Assembly: GCA_022824265.1 (NCBI GenBank)
Contig: JAJEAG010000096.1
Span: 1 to 64,000 of the forward strand
DNA: 64,000 nucleotides
Reading direction: 5' to 3'
From: Candidatus Poribacteria bacterium
GTDB taxonomy: Bacteria > Poribacteria > WGA-4E > WGA-3G
A program made the position numbers and the translations under genes. Every line of letters begins with the position of its first letter. The stretch's first letter is position 1. Below are positions 27,484 to 60,269 of this stretch, piece after piece. The notes under the pieces were generated by a model. That model saw nothing but the letters and a program-made list of their open reading frames with translations. It was not told the origin of the DNA and did not search any database.

Positions 27484-27511
27484 TAAAATACTCTGGTTGG
27501 AATATTATTTT

Positions 27512-28336
27512 ATGACTCCTCCTTCTTCTACGCCAGCACCTTCAAATGGGTTGGCGTTTTTACTAAAAAATCGTTTATACCATACCCTATCAGAAGTAGG
27601 TGATGCTTTTCGGCTGCTTGCCGAGACAATCTTCCAAATTTTTAGACCACCGTTGCAATTTGATCTGTTAATGAAGCAATTGCTTTTCATTGGGTTTAAC
27701 TCTTTATCAGTTGTTTTAGTATCAGGTTTTTTTACAGGAATGGTGTTAGGTGTTCAAGGTTATGTTCAGTTGAAACCGTATGCAGTTGAAGGATCTGTCG
27801 CACAATTTGTCAGTGTATCTGTTGTTAAAGAACTTGGACCAATGATAACTGCATTTGTGCTTTCTGGACGTATTGGTGCATCTATTACAGCAGAACTTTC
27901 TACGATGAAGGTCACTGAGCAAATTGATGCTTTGGAAGTGATGGGAACGAATCCTGTAAAATATCTGGTTGTCCCACGTTTTCTGGCATGTTCATTTATG
28001 CTCCCGACGTTAACTATTTTTTCGACATTTGCGGGTATCTTCGGGGGTTATGTTGCAGTCGTAACTCTGTTCGGTTTCAATGGTGATTTTTACATCTTAC
28101 AAGTTCAGCAACACTTATTTATTGGAAGTGTATTTATTAGTTTAATCAAAGCGACTTCATTTGGCATGGCAATTGCTGCGGTTGGATGCTATAAAGGATT
28201 CAGTATTTCTTCCGCAGGCGGTGCAGAAGGTGTCGGTACAGCGACAACAGGTTCTGCAGTTATATCTCTGATTACTATCTTGGTTTTGGACTTTGTGCTA
28301 AACCATATTCTATTTAATCTATTAGGATTGACCTAA
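27512..28336 (+). CDS. MlaE-family ABC transporter permease
   Basis: A 274-residue integral membrane permease of the MlaE/TrbE (DUF140) family: FFTGMVLGVQGYVQL, VKELGPMITAFVLSGRIGASITAEL and MKVTEQIDALEVMGTNPVKYLVVPR are all characteristic. With the ATPase and MCE protein downstream it forms an Mla-type system that moves phospholipids between the inner and outer membranes. The ATG at 27512 fits the family better than the TTG 15 nt upstream. It may be co-transcribed with dnaB. Confidence 0.92.
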   Translation: MTPPSSTPAPSNGLAFLLKNRLYHTLSEVGDAFRLLAETIFQIFRPPLQFDLLMKQLLFIGFNSLSVVLVSGFFTGMVLGVQGYVQLKPYAVEGSVAQFVSVSVVKELGPMITAFVLSGRIGASITAELSTMKVTEQIDALEVMGTNPVKYLVVPRFLACSFMLPTLTIFSTFAGIFGGYVAVVTLFGFNGDFYILQVQQHLFIGSVFISLIKATSFGMAIAAVGCYKGFSISSAGGAEGVGTATTGSAVISLITILVLDFVLNHILFNLLGLT

Positions 28337-28397: not shown

Positions 28398-29186
28398 ATG
28401 ATTTCAATTAGGAACGTCAGAAAATCTTTTGATGAAAAACAGGTTTTAAACGGTATAGACCTTGAAGTGCCACTTGGTGAGACACTTGTCATTTTAGGAC
28501 GAAGTGGCTGCGGTAAAAGCGTTTTGCTCAAGATAATTGCTGGACTGCTCTCCATAGATGGTGGGGAGGTATGGGTTGATGGCACAGAAATTACAAATCT
28601 TAAACGGAAACAGATGAATCAGATTCGCAGAAAGATCGGTATGCTTTTTCAATCCGCAGCATTATTTGACTCGATGAGTGTGGCTGAAAATATCGCCTTC
28701 ATGCTTGACCAACATACAGATTTATCACAACAAGAAATGCGTAAGGTCGTTGATGAGAAGTTGAAATTAGTTGATTTAGACGGTGTACAAGAATTGCGTC
28801 CTGCACAACTTAGTGGTGGGATGCGAAAACGTGTAGGTCTTGCTCGGGCACTTGCGTTCAATCCTGAAATCATATTATATGATGAACCTACTACTGGACT
28901 TGATCCTGTTACCTGCAATGAAATTAACGAACTTATTCGCGACTTAAATAAGAAGTTGCAAGTAACTTCTGTAGTGGTGACACACGATATGCACAGTGCC
29001 TTCAGCGTTGGGACGCTTATGGTGATGCTCCATGAAGGTAAGAAACTTGCTTACGGCACGCCTGAATCTATGATAAATGAAGATAACCCGATTCTGCAAC
29101 AATTCATACTTTTTGGTGCACCGGATCAGATACTTAATATTGACGAACCAACTTTAAAAAAATACACAGGGAGAAGCACTGAATGA
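28398..29186 (+). CDS. MlaF-family ABC transporter ATP-binding protein
   Basis: A 262-residue ABC ATPase: Walker A GRSGCGKSV, Q-loop MLFQSAALFDSMSV (typical of MlaF/Ttg2A), signature LSGGMRKRVG, Walker B ILYDEPTTGLD, H-loop VTHDMHSAFSV. It energises the MlaE-type permease encoded just upstream. Its stop overlaps the start of the MCE gene by 4 nt (ATGA), showing translational coupling. Confidence 0.94.
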   Translation: MISIRNVRKSFDEKQVLNGIDLEVPLGETLVILGRSGCGKSVLLKIIAGLLSIDGGEVWVDGTEITNLKRKQMNQIRRKIGMLFQSAALFDSMSVAENIAFMLDQHTDLSQQEMRKVVDEKLKLVDLDGVQELRPAQLSGGMRKRVGLARALAFNPEIILYDEPTTGLDPVTCNEINELIRDLNKKLQVTSVVVTHDMHSAFSVGTLMVMLHEGKKLAYGTPESMINEDNPILQQFILFGAPDQILNIDEPTLKKYTGRSTE

Positions 29187-30754
29187 AGTTTTGGAGTGCA
29201 TCTGTAAAAGTGGGATTGATGGTGGTTGTTGCTATTATTCTACTTGCTATTCTTCTCACTAACGCATCAAATCTACCTTGGGGAACAAGAGGGGATGATA
29301 TATATTTTAAATTCCAAGCTGTAAATGGACTTTATGTTGGTTCAGGAGTTTTTCTTTCCGGTGTTTCTATAGGTAAGGTGACGGATATTATACTTAGACC
29401 TGAAACAAATTCTGTTGAAATTCGCGCCCGAGTCAAAAACGCTTTTAAGTGGCTCAGACAAGGTACTGATGCGCGAATTTCTATGAGCGGATTCGTGGGG
29501 GAGACTTATATTGCCCTAAAAAACGGCGATGTTGGCAATCCACCACTTCAACCATCCGATCTTCCAATCATAGGGATTGACCCAGTGAATCCGTTGGAAT
29601 TACTTGAGCAAACCAGTTCTGGATTAAGTGAGGCTATAGATTTAACCTCTGCAGCAAACGAGCTGCTTCAAGCAAATCAGGAATCAATTCAACAAGGGAT
29701 CAAGGAAACACGCGAATTAGTTGCATCAACAAGTGACACACTTAAAAAGTTCAATAAAAACATGGATGAAACTGTCAGTACACTGATGCAACTGGCAGCG
29801 AAAAATGATCAACGTTTTGAACAAACACTTACTAATTTCAACCGATTATTGACCCAACTTGGCAATGATTCCTTAATATTAAGTAGCCAGATAAGTGATG
29901 TTAGCCGTTCAATGTTGACACTTGTAGACAGGAATTTCCCGAAAGTCAATAGAATTTTATCTGATCTACAGCAGGGGACATCCGATTTTCAGAGGTTAGC
30001 GATGCAATTCCGGAATGATTCAAGTGAATTAAAAACCGAAATTTCTGGTCTTATTTCACAAGGGAGCACATTTATTGAAAAGGGTAGTGAAGATATCGCT
30101 CCAATTATAGAAAACATGAGGATAGCCACGTCTGCTGCGACTTCATTAGAGAAAAATATCAATGAACTATTAAACACTATACAGCATGGTGAAGGCACGG
30201 TCGCACAACTTTTAAATAATCCTGAACCGCTAACAGATGCAAAGAAAACCTTAAATAACCTAAATGAGGTACTAATAGGCTTTAAAGACCTATACCAGCA
30301 GACAGACGAACAATTAAAAGGCTTTAAACTACCTGATTTTTCTTGGGATACAGAACTTAGATATCTAAGTCTGGAAGAAAATTTACATACAGAATTTGGA
30401 TTTTCACTTATACCGGTACCTCCAGCAAAGAGCCAGTATCGTTTTGGGCTCGGTATTCGGGATGAAATAATAGGTGCAGAATTTCAATATACATATAATT
30501 TTAGCGACTATGTACAAGGTAGACTCGGATTCATACGTTCCAAAGTTGGTGCAGGTGTTGATGTTTGGTTTATACCTCATCGATTGGGTATAGGAATAGA
30601 AAGTGTTGGCTTAACAAGTGATAAACCAGAATTGAATGCGGAGATGAGTTTGCGGTTTTTCCGTGGTTTCCACATAGTCGGTGGTGTCGAAAATTGGCGG
30701 AGTGAGGATAGACGTTGGACAACAGGACTGAAACTAATTGCAAGCGAATGGTAA
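29183..30754 (+). CDS. MCE (MlaD-family) protein with a beta-barrel-like C-terminal domain
   Basis: A 523-residue protein: an N-terminal membrane anchor (about 9-27), an MCE domain (about 35-115: FKFQAVNGLYVGSGVFLSGVSIGKV), a long helical segment (about 130-385) that could form a hydrophobic tunnel or coiled coil, and a beta-rich C-terminus (about 388-523) made of eight or nine alternating strands ending in the aromatic residue W523. That C-terminus resembles an outer-membrane barrel domain. If so, one polypeptide would span from the inner to the outer membrane, replacing MlaC/MlaA shuttling. Overlaps the ATPase gene by 4 nt. Confidence 0.82.
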   Translation: MKFWSASVKVGLMVVVAIILLAILLTNASNLPWGTRGDDIYFKFQAVNGLYVGSGVFLSGVSIGKVTDIILRPETNSVEIRARVKNAFKWLRQGTDARISMSGFVGETYIALKNGDVGNPPLQPSDLPIIGIDPVNPLELLEQTSSGLSEAIDLTSAANELLQANQESIQQGIKETRELVASTSDTLKKFNKNMDETVSTLMQLAAKNDQRFEQTLTNFNRLLTQLGNDSLILSSQISDVSRSMLTLVDRNFPKVNRILSDLQQGTSDFQRLAMQFRNDSSELKTEISGLISQGSTFIEKGSEDIAPIIENMRIATSAATSLEKNINELLNTIQHGEGTVAQLLNNPEPLTDAKKTLNNLNEVLIGFKDLYQQTDEQLKGFKLPDFSWDTELRYLSLEENLHTEFGFSLIPVPPAKSQYRFGLGIRDEIIGAEFQYTYNFSDYVQGRLGFIRSKVGAGVDVWFIPHRLGIGIESVGLTSDKPELNAEMSLRFFRGFHIVGGVENWRSEDRRWTTGLKLIASEW

Positions 30755-43435: not shown

Positions 43436-44932
43436 ATGACAAGTCCCCCTAAAGTGTTTATTTCATATTCCCACGATTCTCCAGAGCATAAGCGGTGGGT
43501 ATCCGAACTCGCAGCAAGACTTCGTCGTGATGGAATCGATGCAATCCTTGACCAGTGGGACCTCGGACTGGGTGATGATGTGACACGATTCATGGAACAT
43601 GGCATCGTTGAATCTGATAGAGTGCTGGTTGTTTGCACCGATCAGTACGTGAACAAGGCGAACACAAATGAAGGTGGTGTTGGCTATGAGCGGATGATTG
43701 TAAACGCGGAACTTGTTCAGAATTTAGGAACAGACAAATTTATTCCTATCATTCGTCAGGCCTCAGGCAAAGCAAAAACACCAACATTTTTAGGAACAAG
43801 AGTCTATGCGGACTTTAGAAATGACAGTCAATTTGATGTAGAGTGTAAAAAATTGATTCGTGAACTCCACGATATGCCCGTTGTAGAGAAACCGCCTTTG
43901 GGAAAAAATCCCTTCCCTTCTGCAGAATTAGACACGCAACTAACTGGTATTCCGGAGGAAGTTAAATCCGCATCAGAAGCTTACAAAACAGCGACTAAAC
44001 TTGCACGGGCAGGAGACACACTCGGTTGGCGGGAACTTATCAAAAAGATTAGACCAAACGCATTCAAAACTTTAGTCCAATGGCGGCAAAATGAATTGGA
44101 TGGACAAAGACCTAATGGCAAAGAACATCTGGTTCAGATTATGGATAAAGCTGTTGAGATTATTTCACCCTTAATGGTTGTAGCCTTAGTAGGAGTTGGA
44201 TCTGGCAGACAGGAATTTAGAGACCAAAAATCTTTACTTGATGATCTGCAAAACATTGTAGAATGGAATCCTGCTGGGTACGAAGTTTGGATACGTTTGC
44301 CGAACGCATTAGGTTATGTATATCACAGTCTGCACGGGGGACTCAGTCTTAACACAAATCAGATCGACCTCGCCCTAAACCTTGCACGTGTTAAAATGCC
44401 TGTTGCTGGCGGAACACAGTTCTTCCATTTATGGGAAATGAGCGAACTCAGAGGATACGCCCGTTCAATCAGTGGCAACCCTGGTGGAAATAGTCTCGAA
44501 AGTTGGAGCTATTTGGCTAATGCTTATGAAAGATGGAAATGGTTATCTTATATATTTGAAGATGAACGAGAGTATCGAGCTTCGTTGGTGGCATATTATA
44601 TGGCATTAAATATTCATGAATTAGCGACGGTAATAGATGCAGGTCGTCAAGATTTATTAAAACAGAATTCTAATCCTTATTTTATTATCCCATTGAGTTT
44701 CCTGTCTGAAGATTACCAAATTAACCAACGCGCTATTTCTCTATTGCGCCGTAACCCTGAAGCACTAATGGAATTATGGATGTGTTTAAAGGTCACGCGT
44801 GAGCAAATGGAAAACTCATGGGATGCTTGGATTGAGTCAGCTGAAAGTCAATTAATTAGGTATGGGAGATTCAATCAGAAAACACTTACAAATCTATCTG
44901 ATATTTTTCGGTATCTTTTTACGGGTTTGTAG
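43436..44932 (+). CDS. SEFIR-domain protein with unknown C-terminal region
   Basis: A 498-residue protein. The N-terminal 150 residues form a SEFIR (TIR-like) domain: KVFISYSHDSPEHKRWVSEL, LDQWDLGLGDD, RVLVVCTDQYV, GGVGYERMI, DKFIPIIRQ. SEFIR and TIR domains act in bacterial anti-phage signalling, often as NADases. The C-terminal about 330 residues are helical with a conserved-looking AYERWKWLSYIFEDEREYRASLVAYYMALNIHELATV but no family I recognise. It lies directly before a second SEFIR gene, which suggests a defence island. The gene ends 156 nt before that gene. Confidence 0.72.
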   Translation: MTSPPKVFISYSHDSPEHKRWVSELAARLRRDGIDAILDQWDLGLGDDVTRFMEHGIVESDRVLVVCTDQYVNKANTNEGGVGYERMIVNAELVQNLGTDKFIPIIRQASGKAKTPTFLGTRVYADFRNDSQFDVECKKLIRELHDMPVVEKPPLGKNPFPSAELDTQLTGIPEEVKSASEAYKTATKLARAGDTLGWRELIKKIRPNAFKTLVQWRQNELDGQRPNGKEHLVQIMDKAVEIISPLMVVALVGVGSGRQEFRDQKSLLDDLQNIVEWNPAGYEVWIRLPNALGYVYHSLHGGLSLNTNQIDLALNLARVKMPVAGGTQFFHLWEMSELRGYARSISGNPGGNSLESWSYLANAYERWKWLSYIFEDEREYRASLVAYYMALNIHELATVIDAGRQDLLKQNSNPYFIIPLSFLSEDYQINQRAISLLRRNPEALMELWMCLKVTREQMENSWDAWIESAESQLIRYGRFNQKTLTNLSDIFRYLFTGL

Positions 44933-45088
44933 ATTAATTACGCATTGGTCAACCCTAACAGTCCACTTTAAATCACCTAAATATAAAGTATATTATAGAT
45001 ATACTGCTGGGATAATTTAACTTCGTTTATTTACTAAGCAGCGTTCAAATTTGAGAAATTTTCTTCGCGCCAAATTGGAATACAAAAG

Positions 45089-46777
45089 ATGGTAGAAAAC
45101 CCTAAGGTCTTCATTTCATTTTCTCACGATTCTCTAAAACATATGCAATGGGTATCAGAACTAGCTGCACGACTTCAACACAATAATGTTGATGTTATTT
45201 TTGATGTTAATATTATACTCGATCAATGGCCTCCCAAACTAGACGCGGATTCTACACGATTGATGGAATCCGGCGTTAGAGATGCTGATAGGATCTTGGT
45301 CATTTGCACGGATAGTTACGTGAGAATAGCGAACGAAGGTGAGGGTGGAGTCGGGTACGAACCAACCATTATAACAAGGAGAATTGTTGAAGATATGGGA
45401 ATTAACAAATTCATTCCCATAATTCGCCAGACCTTAACAAAAGAAAAAACACCAGACTTCTTAAAAAATAGGGTTTATATTGACTTTACGGATGATGAAC
45501 AATTTAATCAAAAATTTGAGGAACTGCTTCATGAACGCCTTTTAGTCCCACCCTTACAAAGACCTGATGTTCCACACATTGAGTCATTGCGTATTAAAAA
45601 CTACCGCGCACTAAGAGATATAGAATTAAAACAGCTTAAACCGTTAACTGTCTTTTTAGGCGCAAACGGTAGCGGTAAATCAACACTATTTGATGTCTTT
45701 GCGTTTCTCTCTGAATGTTTCACAGTCGGATTGCGTCAAGCGTGGAACAAAAGGGGACGTTTTAAGGAACTGAGAACACGCGGGAGTGATGGACCAATTG
45801 AATTTGAGTTGAAATATCGTGAGAAACCTGGCACCCCAATTATAACCTACTATCTCGTTATCAATGAGGATACTACAGATCCGATAGTTGAAGTCGAATG
45901 GCTGCAATGGCGACGCAGTAGTCGGGGAAAACATATACGTTTTCTCGATTTTCATCAAGGTGTAGGTAGCATCATAGGTGGTGAGATACCTGATGAGGGT
46001 GGCAAGCGAATTGATGAACAACTTGATGATCCATCAATGCTCGCTGTTAGCATGCTGGGTCAGTCTGCACACCATCCCCGTGTAAGTGCCCTTAGGCGTT
46101 TTATTATAGACTGGCACCTCTCTTACCTTTCTATCAATGCCACACGTGAGGTCACAGAAGTTGGACCGCAAAGTAGATTATCCCAAACAGGAGACAATCT
46201 ACCCAATGTTATTCAGTATCTGCAAGAGAAATATCCAGAACGCTTGGAAAAAATTATCTCGGTTATGTCGGAGCGGGTGCCGCGCTTGGAAAACATAGAC
46301 ACGAAATCCATGATAGACGGTCGCCTACTACTACATGTTAAAGATGCACCATTTAAACAACCTGTTTTGGCAAAGTTCACCTCTGATGGCACGTTAAAAC
46401 TACTATCTTATCTCACACTGTTTCATGATAGACGACCGCCCCAATTGATCTGTATTGAGGAACCTGAGAATTACCTACACCCGCGCCTGTTGACCGGTTT
46501 AGTCGGGGACTGTTTTAAGGCATCAGCTTCGTCTCAACTAATGATTACCACCCATTCACCTCATTTTGTTAATGAACTTCATCCTGAGGATGTGTGGGTT
46601 TTGTATCGGGATGAACAAGGTTGGACAGTGTGCAAACGCGCGTCTGAAATGATGGGAATCAATGAATTAATGGAAGCGGGGGCGAAGTTAGGGAAACTAT
46701 GGATGGAAGGCCACTTTGAATTCGGTGACCCTCTCACCAATGCAGGCGGTCCAAAGCGGAGAGTCAATGTTCATTAA
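45089..46777 (+). CDS. SEFIR domain fused to an OLD/RecF-like ABC ATPase
   Basis: A 562-residue protein. The N-terminal SEFIR domain (1-150) is clearly related to the neighbour at 43436, with an extra 8-residue insertion (about 36-43) that looks like a tandem 12-nt duplication (45191-45214). The C-terminal AAA15/21-type ATPase has the motif HIESLRIKNYRALRDIELKQLKPLTVFLGA, Walker A GANGSGKST (191-199), ICIEEPENYLHPRLL, and the H-loop TTHSPHF. It overlaps the DUF4276 gene. A SEFIR-ATPase plus TOPRIM-like partner is a likely anti-phage sensor-effector, related in plan to OLD, PARIS or Septu-type systems. Confidence 0.8.
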   Translation: MVENPKVFISFSHDSLKHMQWVSELAARLQHNNVDVIFDVNIILDQWPPKLDADSTRLMESGVRDADRILVICTDSYVRIANEGEGGVGYEPTIITRRIVEDMGINKFIPIIRQTLTKEKTPDFLKNRVYIDFTDDEQFNQKFEELLHERLLVPPLQRPDVPHIESLRIKNYRALRDIELKQLKPLTVFLGANGSGKSTLFDVFAFLSECFTVGLRQAWNKRGRFKELRTRGSDGPIEFELKYREKPGTPIITYYLVINEDTTDPIVEVEWLQWRRSSRGKHIRFLDFHQGVGSIIGGEIPDEGGKRIDEQLDDPSMLAVSMLGQSAHHPRVSALRRFIIDWHLSYLSINATREVTEVGPQSRLSQTGDNLPNVIQYLQEKYPERLEKIISVMSERVPRLENIDTKSMIDGRLLLHVKDAPFKQPVLAKFTSDGTLKLLSYLTLFHDRRPPQLICIEEPENYLHPRLLTGLVGDCFKASASSQLMITTHSPHFVNELHPEDVWVLYRDEQGWTVCKRASEMMGINELMEAGAKLGKLWMEGHFEFGDPLTNAGGPKRRVNVH

Positions 46778-47399
46778 ATTCTTCTTGGAGGAATTTTCTG
46801 CTGAAGAAGCATTAAAACACCTCTTGCCGAAAATATTAACAGATGATGTCAGTTATGAATTCCACACTTTTCAAGGAAGGGACGAGATGCTTATAGAATT
46901 GCCAAAGCGTTTGAAAGGAGAACAATGGATACCTAACGACTGGAGAATTATCGTTCTTATTGATGAAGACCGAAGAGACTGTCACGAGTTGAAAGCATAT
47001 TTAGAAAAAGTCGCACACGAAGCGGGTTTTGTGACAAAATCCAGTGCGGATCTAAACGAAGATTTTCAAGTCGTCAATAGAATAGCAATTGAGGAATTAG
47101 AGGCATGGTTTTTTGGAGATGTTGAGGCTTTACACATGGCTTATCCCAAAATATCAAGGAATCTACATACTAAGGCGAAATACCGAAATCCAGATGCAAT
47201 TACAGGCGGTACTTACGAAGTACTAGATCGCTTGTTGAGACAGAATAATTATTATAGGAAAGGTGAAAGAATACACAAACCTACAGTTGTCCAGAACATT
47301 GCGCGATATATGGAACCGAACCGAAATAAGTCCAAAAGTTTTCAGGTGTTTGTTGAAGGACTCAAGGCATGTGTGGGAAAGGATGAATTGATAAATTAA
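46767..47399 (+). CDS. DUF4276 family protein (TOPRIM-like)
   Basis: A 210-residue protein of the DUF4276 family: FLEEFSAEEALKHLLPKIL near the N-terminus, RDEMLIELPKRLKG, IIVLIDEDRRDCHELK (D66, E67, D68 would be the TOPRIM DxD) and RIAIEELEAWFFGDVEALHMAYPKI. DUF4276 proteins usually pair with OLD/AAA ATPases and are suspected nucleases. The ATG at 46767 is supported by family alignment and GCGGAGAG upstream; it overlaps the ATPase gene by 11 nt. The longer frame from 46716 is unlikely. Confidence 0.82.
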   Translation: MFIKFFLEEFSAEEALKHLLPKILTDDVSYEFHTFQGRDEMLIELPKRLKGEQWIPNDWRIIVLIDEDRRDCHELKAYLEKVAHEAGFVTKSSADLNEDFQVVNRIAIEELEAWFFGDVEALHMAYPKISRNLHTKAKYRNPDAITGGTYEVLDRLLRQNNYYRKGERIHKPTVVQNIARYMEPNRNKSKSFQVFVEGLKACVGKDELIN

Positions 47400-56957: not shown

Positions 56958-57668
56958 CTATGCTTCCTCAAACAGACTAAGTTGTACTGGTATTAGTTCG
57001 GTAGATGGAAGTTGTTCACTACCAGTTAGAATTGTAAGATAATACTCCTTATCATTAAATATTTGTTCCTCAATCAACCCATTTTTAAAAAAAGAAACAT
57101 ATAACGCAGCAGCACGCGCTTGACAATTCAACGAACGATTTGGATTGAAAACGATGTCAGAAAATCCTTGAAATTCCTCAAGTTCTTTCATAAAATCTCT
57201 CTTTTTTTGATATAATGCAGTAATGTATAACCTGTCATAGAAAGCTGTTTTAGGTTCAGGAGGAAAGTCCTCTCCACAGAAGTTAAAACCAATCAACTTA
57301 CCAGAATTTTGCAACCGTTCGTCGGTCTTTGCAGCCCTACTGGATACCGAATATAAATCGTGATACGGACCACCATCTTCAAACACTTTACTCCCTTGGT
57401 AAGCACACTCCACGGTCATTTTCTGACCGTTCGGTGTTTCCAAAGGTAAAATAAAAGCACTCAACGAAACTCCAAGGCGTGATGTGGACTTTCTCGAAAT
57501 CTCCAAAATTGGTGCGATTCCTTGCTTTTCAGCAGCTTCGTGCAAAGATAGAATACTCTTCTGCATCTGTGATTTTGCAAAGCCTGGATACCATTTAAAT
57601 TCTATGTCTATGGTGTCAACATACGGAAATCCGTTGAAATCGGGGGTAAAAATTGGACGATTTGCCAT
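56958..57668 (-). CDS. NADAR-family protein, probable antitoxin of the upstream WD40-DarT protein
   Basis: A 236-residue protein of the NADAR (DUF6977-like) group: MANRPIFTPDFNGFPYVDTIDIEFKWYPGFAKSQ, KSTSRLGVSLSAFILPLETPNG, VECAYQGSKVFEDGGPYHDLY, KLIGFNFCGEDFPPEPKTAFYD, FNPNRSLNCQARAAALYVS. NADAR proteins remove ADP-ribose from guanosine in DNA and serve as antidotes of DarT1-type toxins. It starts 12 nt after the WD40-DarT stop codon, so it is in the same operon and translated after the toxin. Confidence 0.8.
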   Translation of the reverse strand: MANRPIFTPDFNGFPYVDTIDIEFKWYPGFAKSQMQKSILSLHEAAEKQGIAPILEISRKSTSRLGVSLSAFILPLETPNGQKMTVECAYQGSKVFEDGGPYHDLYSVSSRAAKTDERLQNSGKLIGFNFCGEDFPPEPKTAFYDRLYITALYQKKRDFMKELEEFQGFSDIVFNPNRSLNCQARAAALYVSFFKNGLIEEQIFNDKEYYLTILTGSEQLPSTELIPVQLSLFEEA

Positions 57669-57680
57669 TGCTTTGAACTC

Positions 57681-60269
57681 CTAAAAAGGTATATCATCAT
57701 CAACGTCCACGTTAAGATCTAAGCCATCATGTTCTTCATCACTATCGTCGCTAAAGAACGAAAGCGGAATGCCATCATCGTTAAAATTCCTAGGTAGCCA
57801 TACTTCATAATCACGTCTATATGTGAAATATTCCCTATCATCAAAAAACATATCAGCAAAAGTTCCAGTGTAATTAGAACGCCAATTATTTAAAGTAGTT
57901 GCATCCCAAAAATGGATTGCGTTGATATACTCCGTTGGAATTGGATCAAAAACAAGAACTTCAGCTTGCGGATGTGTCGTATAATTTTGAGGAATGTCCA
58001 ATTCTTTATGTTTGATATTGTAAAAATCTTCAAACATACCTTTTAACGCTTCAGGTTTTTTCCTTTCTTCTAATGGAATTTCACTAACGGTTCCTTTTGC
58101 GGCATTTTGCTGGCAAAACGCACAATCTAATTCCCATAATATTTTTGCATCAAGCAGCAGAATAACCCATTGAGAAATGTTAACTCCTTCAGTCTTCTTT
58201 CGTTCCCTAATGCTATAGAACATTTGATAGTTTGGAAAACTGATGCTTAAACAATTTGCTTCTGGATTTCCATCAGACCGATCAGAGTCATTCCATAAAA
58301 ATTGTTGATCGCGTGTTTTCAGATGACTCCGACCTATTAGACCTTGTTGTAAAACGCTATGTAGATTTTCAATTCGTGTAAAATGGCAAAGTGTTTCTAT
58401 TCCGCGCTCCTCACAAAACTGTTGTATTTGGGATGTGTGACTTGGGTTTAGAGACCATTCTTCTTCAAGTATATCTGTACTTAGTTCTGTTGTATCCCAC
58501 AACAGAACTGTGCCGTCATCACTGCCGCTAGCGAGCGTATTACCATCAGGACTAAACGCAACACTTTTAACGGAGGATATATGTCCCGTAAAAGTGTGTT
58601 TGTGTACACCAGAGTCTACATCCCACAGACGGACTGTCTTGTCATCGCTCCCACTAGCGAGCGTATTACCATCAGGACTAAACGCAACACAATTGACAGA
58701 TTTTGTATGTCCACTTAGAGTATAGATGGATGTTCCTGAAACTACATCCCACAGCCATACTGTCTTTAGATCTCCGGCGGCAAGGATCCGACCATCAGGA
58801 CTAAATGCAACGCAATATACATAAGGAGTATGTCCTGTTAGGGTATGTTTGCGTTCTTCCGAATTCACATCCCATAATATTAACGCGGCACCTACAAACC
58901 GGCAAGCGATCATGTGGACATCGGGACTGAACGCTAGGACCGAAGCTTCTCTTTTTAGGGTGTGTTTATGTATTCCAGAAAAAGCGTTCCAGAAACGAAC
59001 CGTCCCGTCATCGCTCCCACTAGCGAGCATATGACCATCAGGACTGAACACAACACTATTAACAGATTCTGTATGTCCAATTAAAATATATATGGATATC
59101 CTTGAAAAAGCATCCCAGCAACGAACCGTCCCGTCATCACAACCAGCAGCGATCATGCGACCATCAGGACTGAATGCGATACTGTTAACACACCACCCTG
59201 TGTTTTTTATGAGTGTATGTTTGTGTTTTCTTGAAACTGCATCCCATAAAAGCAATGTGCCTTCATGGCTCCCACTAGCGAGCATTCGACTATCAGGGCT
59301 AAACGCAATACTCCTAATCCAACCACCGTGTACGGCGATAGTGTGAATATTCTTTACCGAATTCACATTCCACATTCGTACTACTCCATCAACACCAGCA
59401 CTAGCAAGCATTTGCTCCTTAGAGTTGATAGCAATGCAATCAACGCGCCTGGTGTCTCCTATGAGCGTATGTTTGTGTTTTCCAGAAACTACATCCCATA
59501 ATTGTACTGTTTTATCATATCCTCCAGCACTAGCGAGTGTGCGACCATCAGTATGGAACGCGACACTCTCAACATTACCAGTATGTCCTGTGAGAACATA
59601 TTTGCGTTCTCCTGAAACTAAATCCCACAAGAGCAGCCTACCGTTGACACATCCGCTAGCGAGGATTTGACCATCAGGACTGAACGCAATACTCCTAACC
59701 CAACCGGTGCCTGTATCTAGCGTATGTTTGTGTTTTCCAGAAACTACATCCCACAATTGCACATGCCAACTACCCAAAGCGAGGATTTGACCATCAGGAC
59801 TGAACGCAACACCCTTGCCACACCAAGTATGTCTAAAGGTGTTTTTATGTTTTCCTGATTCCATATCCCACAACTGCACTGCGTCGTCCCAATTGGTAGC
59901 TGCAAGGATTTGACCATCAAGACTGAACACAAGATCCCTGATACCAGATGCCTGTCTAAAGGTACATTTATGTGTACCAGAGTCTACATCCCATAAACGT
60001 ACCGTATTATCACCACTACCACTAGCAAGTGTCCGGCTATCAGGACTGAATGCAACACTCAATACATACCAAGTGTGTCCTGTCAACAGGTTTACTTCTC
60101 TATAGGTGTGTGTATCATATATCCAAATTCCGATGCTAGTCGCAATTGCTAACCGAGTGCCATCTGGAGAAAACTGAATATCGTAGATATCACCTTTCCC
60201 CAGGCGGGTTTTTGCCCTTTCTGGTAAACACCATTGGGTGTAATCTTGGATAAGGTGGTTAGTTTTCAT
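57681..60269 (-). CDS. WD40 (14 repeats) - DarT-type ADP-ribosyltransferase fusion with SSB-like tip
   Basis: An 862-residue protein. Residues about 20-605 contain 14 WD40 repeats (FSPDG...LWD), most likely two seven-bladed propellers. Residues about 620-800 form a DarT domain: LCHFTRIENLHSVLQQGL (His629), a middle EANCLSISFPNYQMFY, WELDCAFCQQNAA, and QAEVLVFDPIPTEYI, whose Glu770 would be catalytic. An acidic tail ends in DDDIPF, identical to the tip of this genome's SSB. DarT enzymes ADP-ribosylate DNA bases; the paired NADAR gene points to the guanosine-specific DarT1 branch. The propellers may sense a signal or mask the toxin. AAGGAAA precedes the ATG. Confidence 0.8.
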   Translation of the reverse strand: MKTNHLIQDYTQWCLPERAKTRLGKGDIYDIQFSPDGTRLAIATSIGIWIYDTHTYREVNLLTGHTWYVLSVAFSPDSRTLASGSGDNTVRLWDVDSGTHKCTFRQASGIRDLVFSLDGQILAATNWDDAVQLWDMESGKHKNTFRHTWCGKGVAFSPDGQILALGSWHVQLWDVVSGKHKHTLDTGTGWVRSIAFSPDGQILASGCVNGRLLLWDLVSGERKYVLTGHTGNVESVAFHTDGRTLASAGGYDKTVQLWDVVSGKHKHTLIGDTRRVDCIAINSKEQMLASAGVDGVVRMWNVNSVKNIHTIAVHGGWIRSIAFSPDSRMLASGSHEGTLLLWDAVSRKHKHTLIKNTGWCVNSIAFSPDGRMIAAGCDDGTVRCWDAFSRISIYILIGHTESVNSVVFSPDGHMLASGSDDGTVRFWNAFSGIHKHTLKREASVLAFSPDVHMIACRFVGAALILWDVNSEERKHTLTGHTPYVYCVAFSPDGRILAAGDLKTVWLWDVVSGTSIYTLSGHTKSVNCVAFSPDGNTLASGSDDKTVRLWDVDSGVHKHTFTGHISSVKSVAFSPDGNTLASGSDDGTVLLWDTTELSTDILEEEWSLNPSHTSQIQQFCEERGIETLCHFTRIENLHSVLQQGLIGRSHLKTRDQQFLWNDSDRSDGNPEANCLSISFPNYQMFYSIRERKKTEGVNISQWVILLLDAKILWELDCAFCQQNAAKGTVSEIPLEERKKPEALKGMFEDFYNIKHKELDIPQNYTTHPQAEVLVFDPIPTEYINAIHFWDATTLNNWRSNYTGTFADMFFDDREYFTYRRDYEVWLPRNFNDDGIPLSFFSDDSDEEHDGLDLNVDVDDDIPF

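Follow-up and report, generated by a model that had tools for sequence, protein, structure and literature searches.

A three-gene mlaEFD operon in Candidatus Poribacteria encodes a long MlaD with a probable outer-membrane barrel

Organization of the mlaEFD operon

The DNA analyzed here (hereafter the window) is a stretch of 64,000 nucleotides, positions 1 to 64,000 of contig JAJEAG010000096.1, from a 97% complete genome of Candidatus Poribacteria (GCA_022824265.1), a phylum associated with sponges. A tight operon of three genes was identified on its forward strand. The first gene, mlaE (27512..28336), encodes the permease subunit, starts with ATG and matches PF02405 with an E-value of 8.5e-70 as well as TIGR00056 above its cut-off; an alternative open reading frame with a TTG start begins at 27497. 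According to profile searches, MlaE is present as a single copy in the genome. The second gene encodes an mlaF-type ATPase (28398..29186; PF00005, E = 1.1e-35), for which the best NCBIfam model is MlaF PRK11831, with a score below the cut-off of the model. This gene overlaps by 4 bases with the open reading frame of mlaD (29183..30754, stop codon at 30752-30754), whose product is a long form of 523 amino acids and the one MCE protein found in the genome with PF02470. The operon consists of mlaEFD only and is flanked by housekeeping genes, and the order dnaB-mlaE-mlaF-mlaD-radA is conserved across relatives wherever the contigs reach. The nearest named loci belong to Poribacteria MAGs and show 97% and 89% identity across the full MlaD protein.

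Profile searches of the same genome also identified LpxC, six Omp85-family matches, a weak LolA-like match, and TamB, which is located on the same contig as one of the Omp85 matches and about 2.4 kb before it. The presence of LpxC, Omp85 proteins and TamB indicates that the cell is an LPS diderm equipped with barrel-assembly machinery.

Domain architecture of MlaD

MlaD is composed of one transmembrane helix, a single MCE domain, approximately 245 helical residues and a C-terminal domain, all on the forward strand. The N-terminal inner-membrane helix (residues 6-26, 29198..29260) is apparent from the sequence and appears as a helix in a low-confidence AF2 model, while the MCE/MlaD domain (residues 37-115, 29291..29527) is matched by PF02470 with E-values of 2.6e-16 and 1.2e-15. 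The subsequent long amphipathic region (residues 137-379, 29591..30319) is assigned as helical on the basis of its helical moment, the low-confidence AF2 model and its length across relatives. In a shuffle test, the region preceding the C-terminal domain displayed a helix periodicity of z = 6.9 and a beta periodicity of z = -2.0. The length of the segment corresponding to residues 139-383 ranges from only 239 to 248 residues (sd 1.0) among relatives, even at 18% identity, and such a near-constant length fits a part that is required to span a fixed gap. The AF2 model of full-length MlaD has a pLDDT of 37, was built from 7 sequences and is unusable as a structure. A straight helix of 245 residues would measure about 36 nm and thus exceed the 24 nm of the V. 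parvula periplasm, which implies that the helix is broken or tilted, or that the periplasm is wider here.

A predicted ten-stranded beta domain at the C-terminus of MlaD

An outer-membrane barrel had originally been predicted from position 30347 onward, which correctly corresponds to residue 389 of MlaD; residue 384 (30332) is the better start of the domain, which we therefore delimit to residues 384-523 (30332..30751, forward strand). It is assigned as a probable outer-membrane barrel on the basis of periodicity, AF2 modeling and conservation. The alternation of hydrophobic and polar residues on which the original prediction relied is real: the beta-periodic moment of residues 388-523 reached z = 3.75 over 1000 shuffles (p = 0.001), and the column means of an alignment of 64 relatives, equivalent to 14 effective sequences at 62% identity, gave z = 4.15, a value that none of 5000 column shuffles attained. 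AF2 modeling of the domain alone, which rests on 7 sequences, resulted in ten strands rather than the predicted eight or nine, with moderate confidence (mean pLDDT 63.7, pTM 0.58). The strands comprise approximately residues 385-397, 400-412, 417-426, 429-439, 444-451, 458-464, 467-473, 483-492, 496-503 and 511-519. Among the relatives, two (L020 and L050) carry an insertion of about ten residues within the first hairpin of the domain, and a third (L043) has insertions in other loops.

A terminal Trp, regarded in the original prediction as a mark of outer-membrane proteins, is indeed present and is kept in 49 of the 64 relatives, most of the others ending with Tyr or Phe. It lies, however, about 4 residues beyond the last predicted strand and is consequently not a classic last-strand terminal aromatic in this genus. 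More distant relatives are shorter at this end, and their last residue (often Tyr) is close to the end of the strand. Conserved charges are found on the polar face in nearly every strand of the 64-relative alignment (E391, R393, R426, E433, R447, D460, E473, E487, R491, E503 and R517).

Sequence searches with the C-terminal domain against Pfam, NCBIfam and PDB chains yielded no credible match. Weak matches to Porin_7 and IAT_beta (E 0.02-0.1) were obtained with single members only and were not counted as evidence. A possible likeness of the domain to the C-termini of deltaproteobacterial MlaD proteins was likewise set aside. The matches listed in a tblastn search of plasmids covered the MCE domain and part of the helix only, leaving the C-terminal domain unreached; the viral contigs searched gave no match, and a scan of genome contigs for relatives returned matches from Poribacteria only.

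Conservation of the hydrophobic and polar faces in the C-terminal domain

Soluble beta proteins bury their hydrophobic face as a conserved core. This is the pattern observed in the MCE strands of MlaD, where the entropy is 1.06 for the hydrophobic and 2.00 for the polar face. In the C-terminal strands of the same alignment, by contrast, the hydrophobic face varies more than the polar one (1.88 versus 1.61). A first run restricted to the C-terminal strands gave no significant difference between their faces (p = 0.43), whereas the difference of differences between the C-terminal and the MCE faces amounts to 1.21, a value that none of 20000 permutations attained. The reversed conservation is expected if the hydrophobic face meets lipid. 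Since the limits of the MCE strands and small shifts of two C-terminal strands are the analyst's reading of a weak model, this contrast is supportive and not proof.

A Foldseek search with the C-terminal domain gave no significant match, and lipocalins were mixed with transmembrane barrels, namely designed TMBs, a minimal transmembrane barrel platform protein and AlkL. The fold alone is thus not decisive. Nevertheless, the conservation pattern of the predicted ten-stranded beta domain is more in keeping with a surface that faces lipid than with the core of a soluble protein, and the C-terminal domain is probably an outer-membrane barrel.

Absence of MlaA and MlaC from 85 genomes of the phylum

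It had been proposed that a MlaD spanning both membranes would make MlaA and MlaC unnecessary. No match to MlaA (PF04333) or MlaC (PF05494) was detected in the 97% complete genome, while the E. coli and Caulobacter control genomes were positive, and neither profile matched in any of 85 genomes of the phylum (0/85). Conversely, the MlaD profile matched in 83 of these 85 genomes, nearly always over the full length and down to 21-25% identity; two of the matching genomes (G080 and G047) count through fragments or a paralogue only.

Several genomes from other families of the phylum encode a second, shorter MCE protein of 443-486 amino acids (G049:C129, G046:C99, G043:C121, G048:C848, G052:C227, G038:C12, G047:C34 and G044:C1). 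Their matches are confined to the MCE part and to pieces of the helix, and they may be paralogues that lack the barrel.

Other genes in the window

Two further loci were noted in the window. On the reverse strand, 56958-60269 comprises two genes. The first encodes an 862-amino-acid WD40-repeat protein whose C-terminal region resembles DarT (PADLOC DarT, E = 1.5e-6; the match is best over residues 626-653), and the next one encodes a DarT1-associated NADAR antitoxin (PF22397, E = 2.8e-82); this is a probable DarT1-type toxin-antitoxin pair in which the toxin is fused to WD40 repeats. On the forward strand, 43436-47399 contains three genes that encode a bSEFIR-type TIR/SEFIR protein, an N-terminal SEFIR/TIR domain fused to an AAA ATPase (HEC-01A match, E = 4.4e-157) and a DUF4276 protein (HEC-01B match, E = 2.7e-80). 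The locus is a candidate for a defence island that includes a fusion of SEFIR to an ATPase.

Comparison with known MCE systems

The idea of a one-piece bridge already appeared in a 2023 study on Veillonella parvula, and Poribacteria are a further case. Grasekamp et al. (2023; PMC10665443) described this MlaD architecture in V. parvula with a ten-stranded barrel, located the barrel to the outer membrane by fractionation, found barrels in 103 MlaD sequences over diderm phyla and suggested that, with such a bridge, MlaA and MlaC are not needed. No barrel was reported for the PVC and FCB groups (PMC10665443); in the NCBI taxonomy, Poribacteria are incertae sedis and outside both groups. Poribacteria are unnamed in the main text of that paper, although the phylum may still be in its data set. 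A paper on a transenvelope system of Borrelia was also considered as a precedent and rejected, its subject being Lpt and not MCE.

The MlaD proteins of V. parvula and Poribacteria have in common a transmembrane helix, one MCE domain, a long helix and a ten-stranded C-terminal domain, and both bacteria are LPS diderms with TamB that possess an mlaEFD operon and lack MlaA and MlaC. The poribacterial barrel is predicted from sequence and modeling and is likened to that of V. parvula by architecture. The two systems differ in the size of MlaD (523 amino acids in Poribacteria versus 419 in V. parvula), in the number of helical residues (∼245 versus ∼150) and in the site of the operon, which lies between dnaB and radA in Poribacteria and beside tolC and tamB in V. 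parvula.

With the six-component Mla system of E. coli (MlaA-MlaF), the poribacterial system shares the MlaE permease, a MlaF-like ATPase and an MCE protein, whereas MlaA and MlaC are missing and there is no STAS gene within the operon. The E. coli MlaD has 183 amino acids and, unlike the poribacterial protein, neither a long helix extension nor a barrel. As in poribacterial MlaD, an MCE domain is followed by a helical tunnel in the mycobacterial Mce1A-1F complex (8fed) and in PqiB/LetB, and the poribacterial MlaD family profile matches the 8fed chains through the helical part. Mce1, however, is a heterohexamer to which each chain contributes one C-terminal strand, while each poribacterial chain holds a complete predicted barrel; PqiB and LetB have several MCE rings and no complete barrel per chain.

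Discussion

The best explanation of these findings, and one that we hold to be likely, is an MlaEFD system encoded by three genes, in which MlaD spans the envelope. The original proposal of a bridge between the two membranes that spares MlaA and MlaC is well supported by inference from the absence of both proteins, the predicted beta domain and the precedent in V. parvula. Solved MCE proteins are hexamers. By analogy with them, six MlaD chains would be seated via their transmembrane helices on an inner-membrane ABC transporter, which, going by their families, MlaE and MlaF would form, and would make up the MCE ring. The approximately 245 helical residues of each chain would assemble into an amphipathic bundle, a lipid tunnel crossing the periplasm as in PqiB, Mce1 and the V. 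parvula model, and the last 140 residues are predicted to form a ten-stranded barrel whose insertion into the outer membrane would depend on BamA. The barrel would anchor the mouth of the tunnel at the outer membrane, most likely without passing lipid itself. An anchor is favored over a pore because ten strands make a narrow barrel and the conserved charges of the polar face would fill its interior, as the sequence suggests. The bridge would substitute for MlaA and MlaC, and its likely role, as judged from V. parvula, would be retrograde phospholipid transport that keeps the LPS outer membrane asymmetric, with TamB opposing it. More speculatively, MlaD might serve as a fixed-length ruler and tether whose barrel is a plugged anchor that conserves interior charges and not a lumen, with lipid bypassing the barrel and entering the tunnel mouth sideways at the inner leaflet; we regard this version as possible and somewhat doubtful.

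Three alternatives were weighed against a transenvelope MlaD. An unrecognised outer-membrane partner could take the place of MlaA, with the C-terminal domain docking onto it, and the LolA-like match makes an outer-membrane lipoprotein partner possible; against this stand the absence of PF04333 and PF05494 from the entire set of 85 genomes and an operon in which mlaEFD are alone among housekeeping neighbours, and we consider such a partner unlikely. Slightly less probable still is a soluble, lipocalin-like periplasmic beta-barrel that takes or hands over lipid, leaving MlaD outside the outer membrane. Lipocalins and odorant-binding proteins are among the best Foldseek matches, none of them significant, and alternation by itself is silent on which face is buried. 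In a soluble barrel, however, the hydrophobic face should be conserved as it is in the MCE domain, yet here it varies more than the polar face, and the conserved charges sit on the opposite, polar face; moreover, the V. parvula barrel was found in outer-membrane fractions (PMC10665443).

The least probable of the three, by a small step, is that the barrels themselves are the lipid path through the outer membrane, several of them fusing in a TolC-like manner into a larger pore for outer-leaflet phospholipid. This was raised as a possibility in PMC10665443, and a hexamer would supply six copies. The domain is, on the other hand, predicted as a complete ten-stranded unit, its polar-face charges suggest a filled interior, and the authors of the V. 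parvula study considered one barrel by itself too narrow and, from their models, six barrels in a ring improbable (PMC10665443).

What is new in comparison with V. parvula is the case of Poribacteria, the near-invariant length of the helix, the conserved charges in the presumed interior and the contrast in conservation between the two beta domains. The transenvelope MlaEFD system proposed here agrees with the published view that MlaA and MlaC were added late and narrowly and that one-piece MlaEFD bridges are common, and it adds to that view a whole phylum, with 85 genomes that have neither MlaA nor MlaC. On the choice between anchor and conduit for the barrel, which the work on V. parvula did not settle, the tightly conserved helix length and the conserved polar-face charges give specific, testable predictions.
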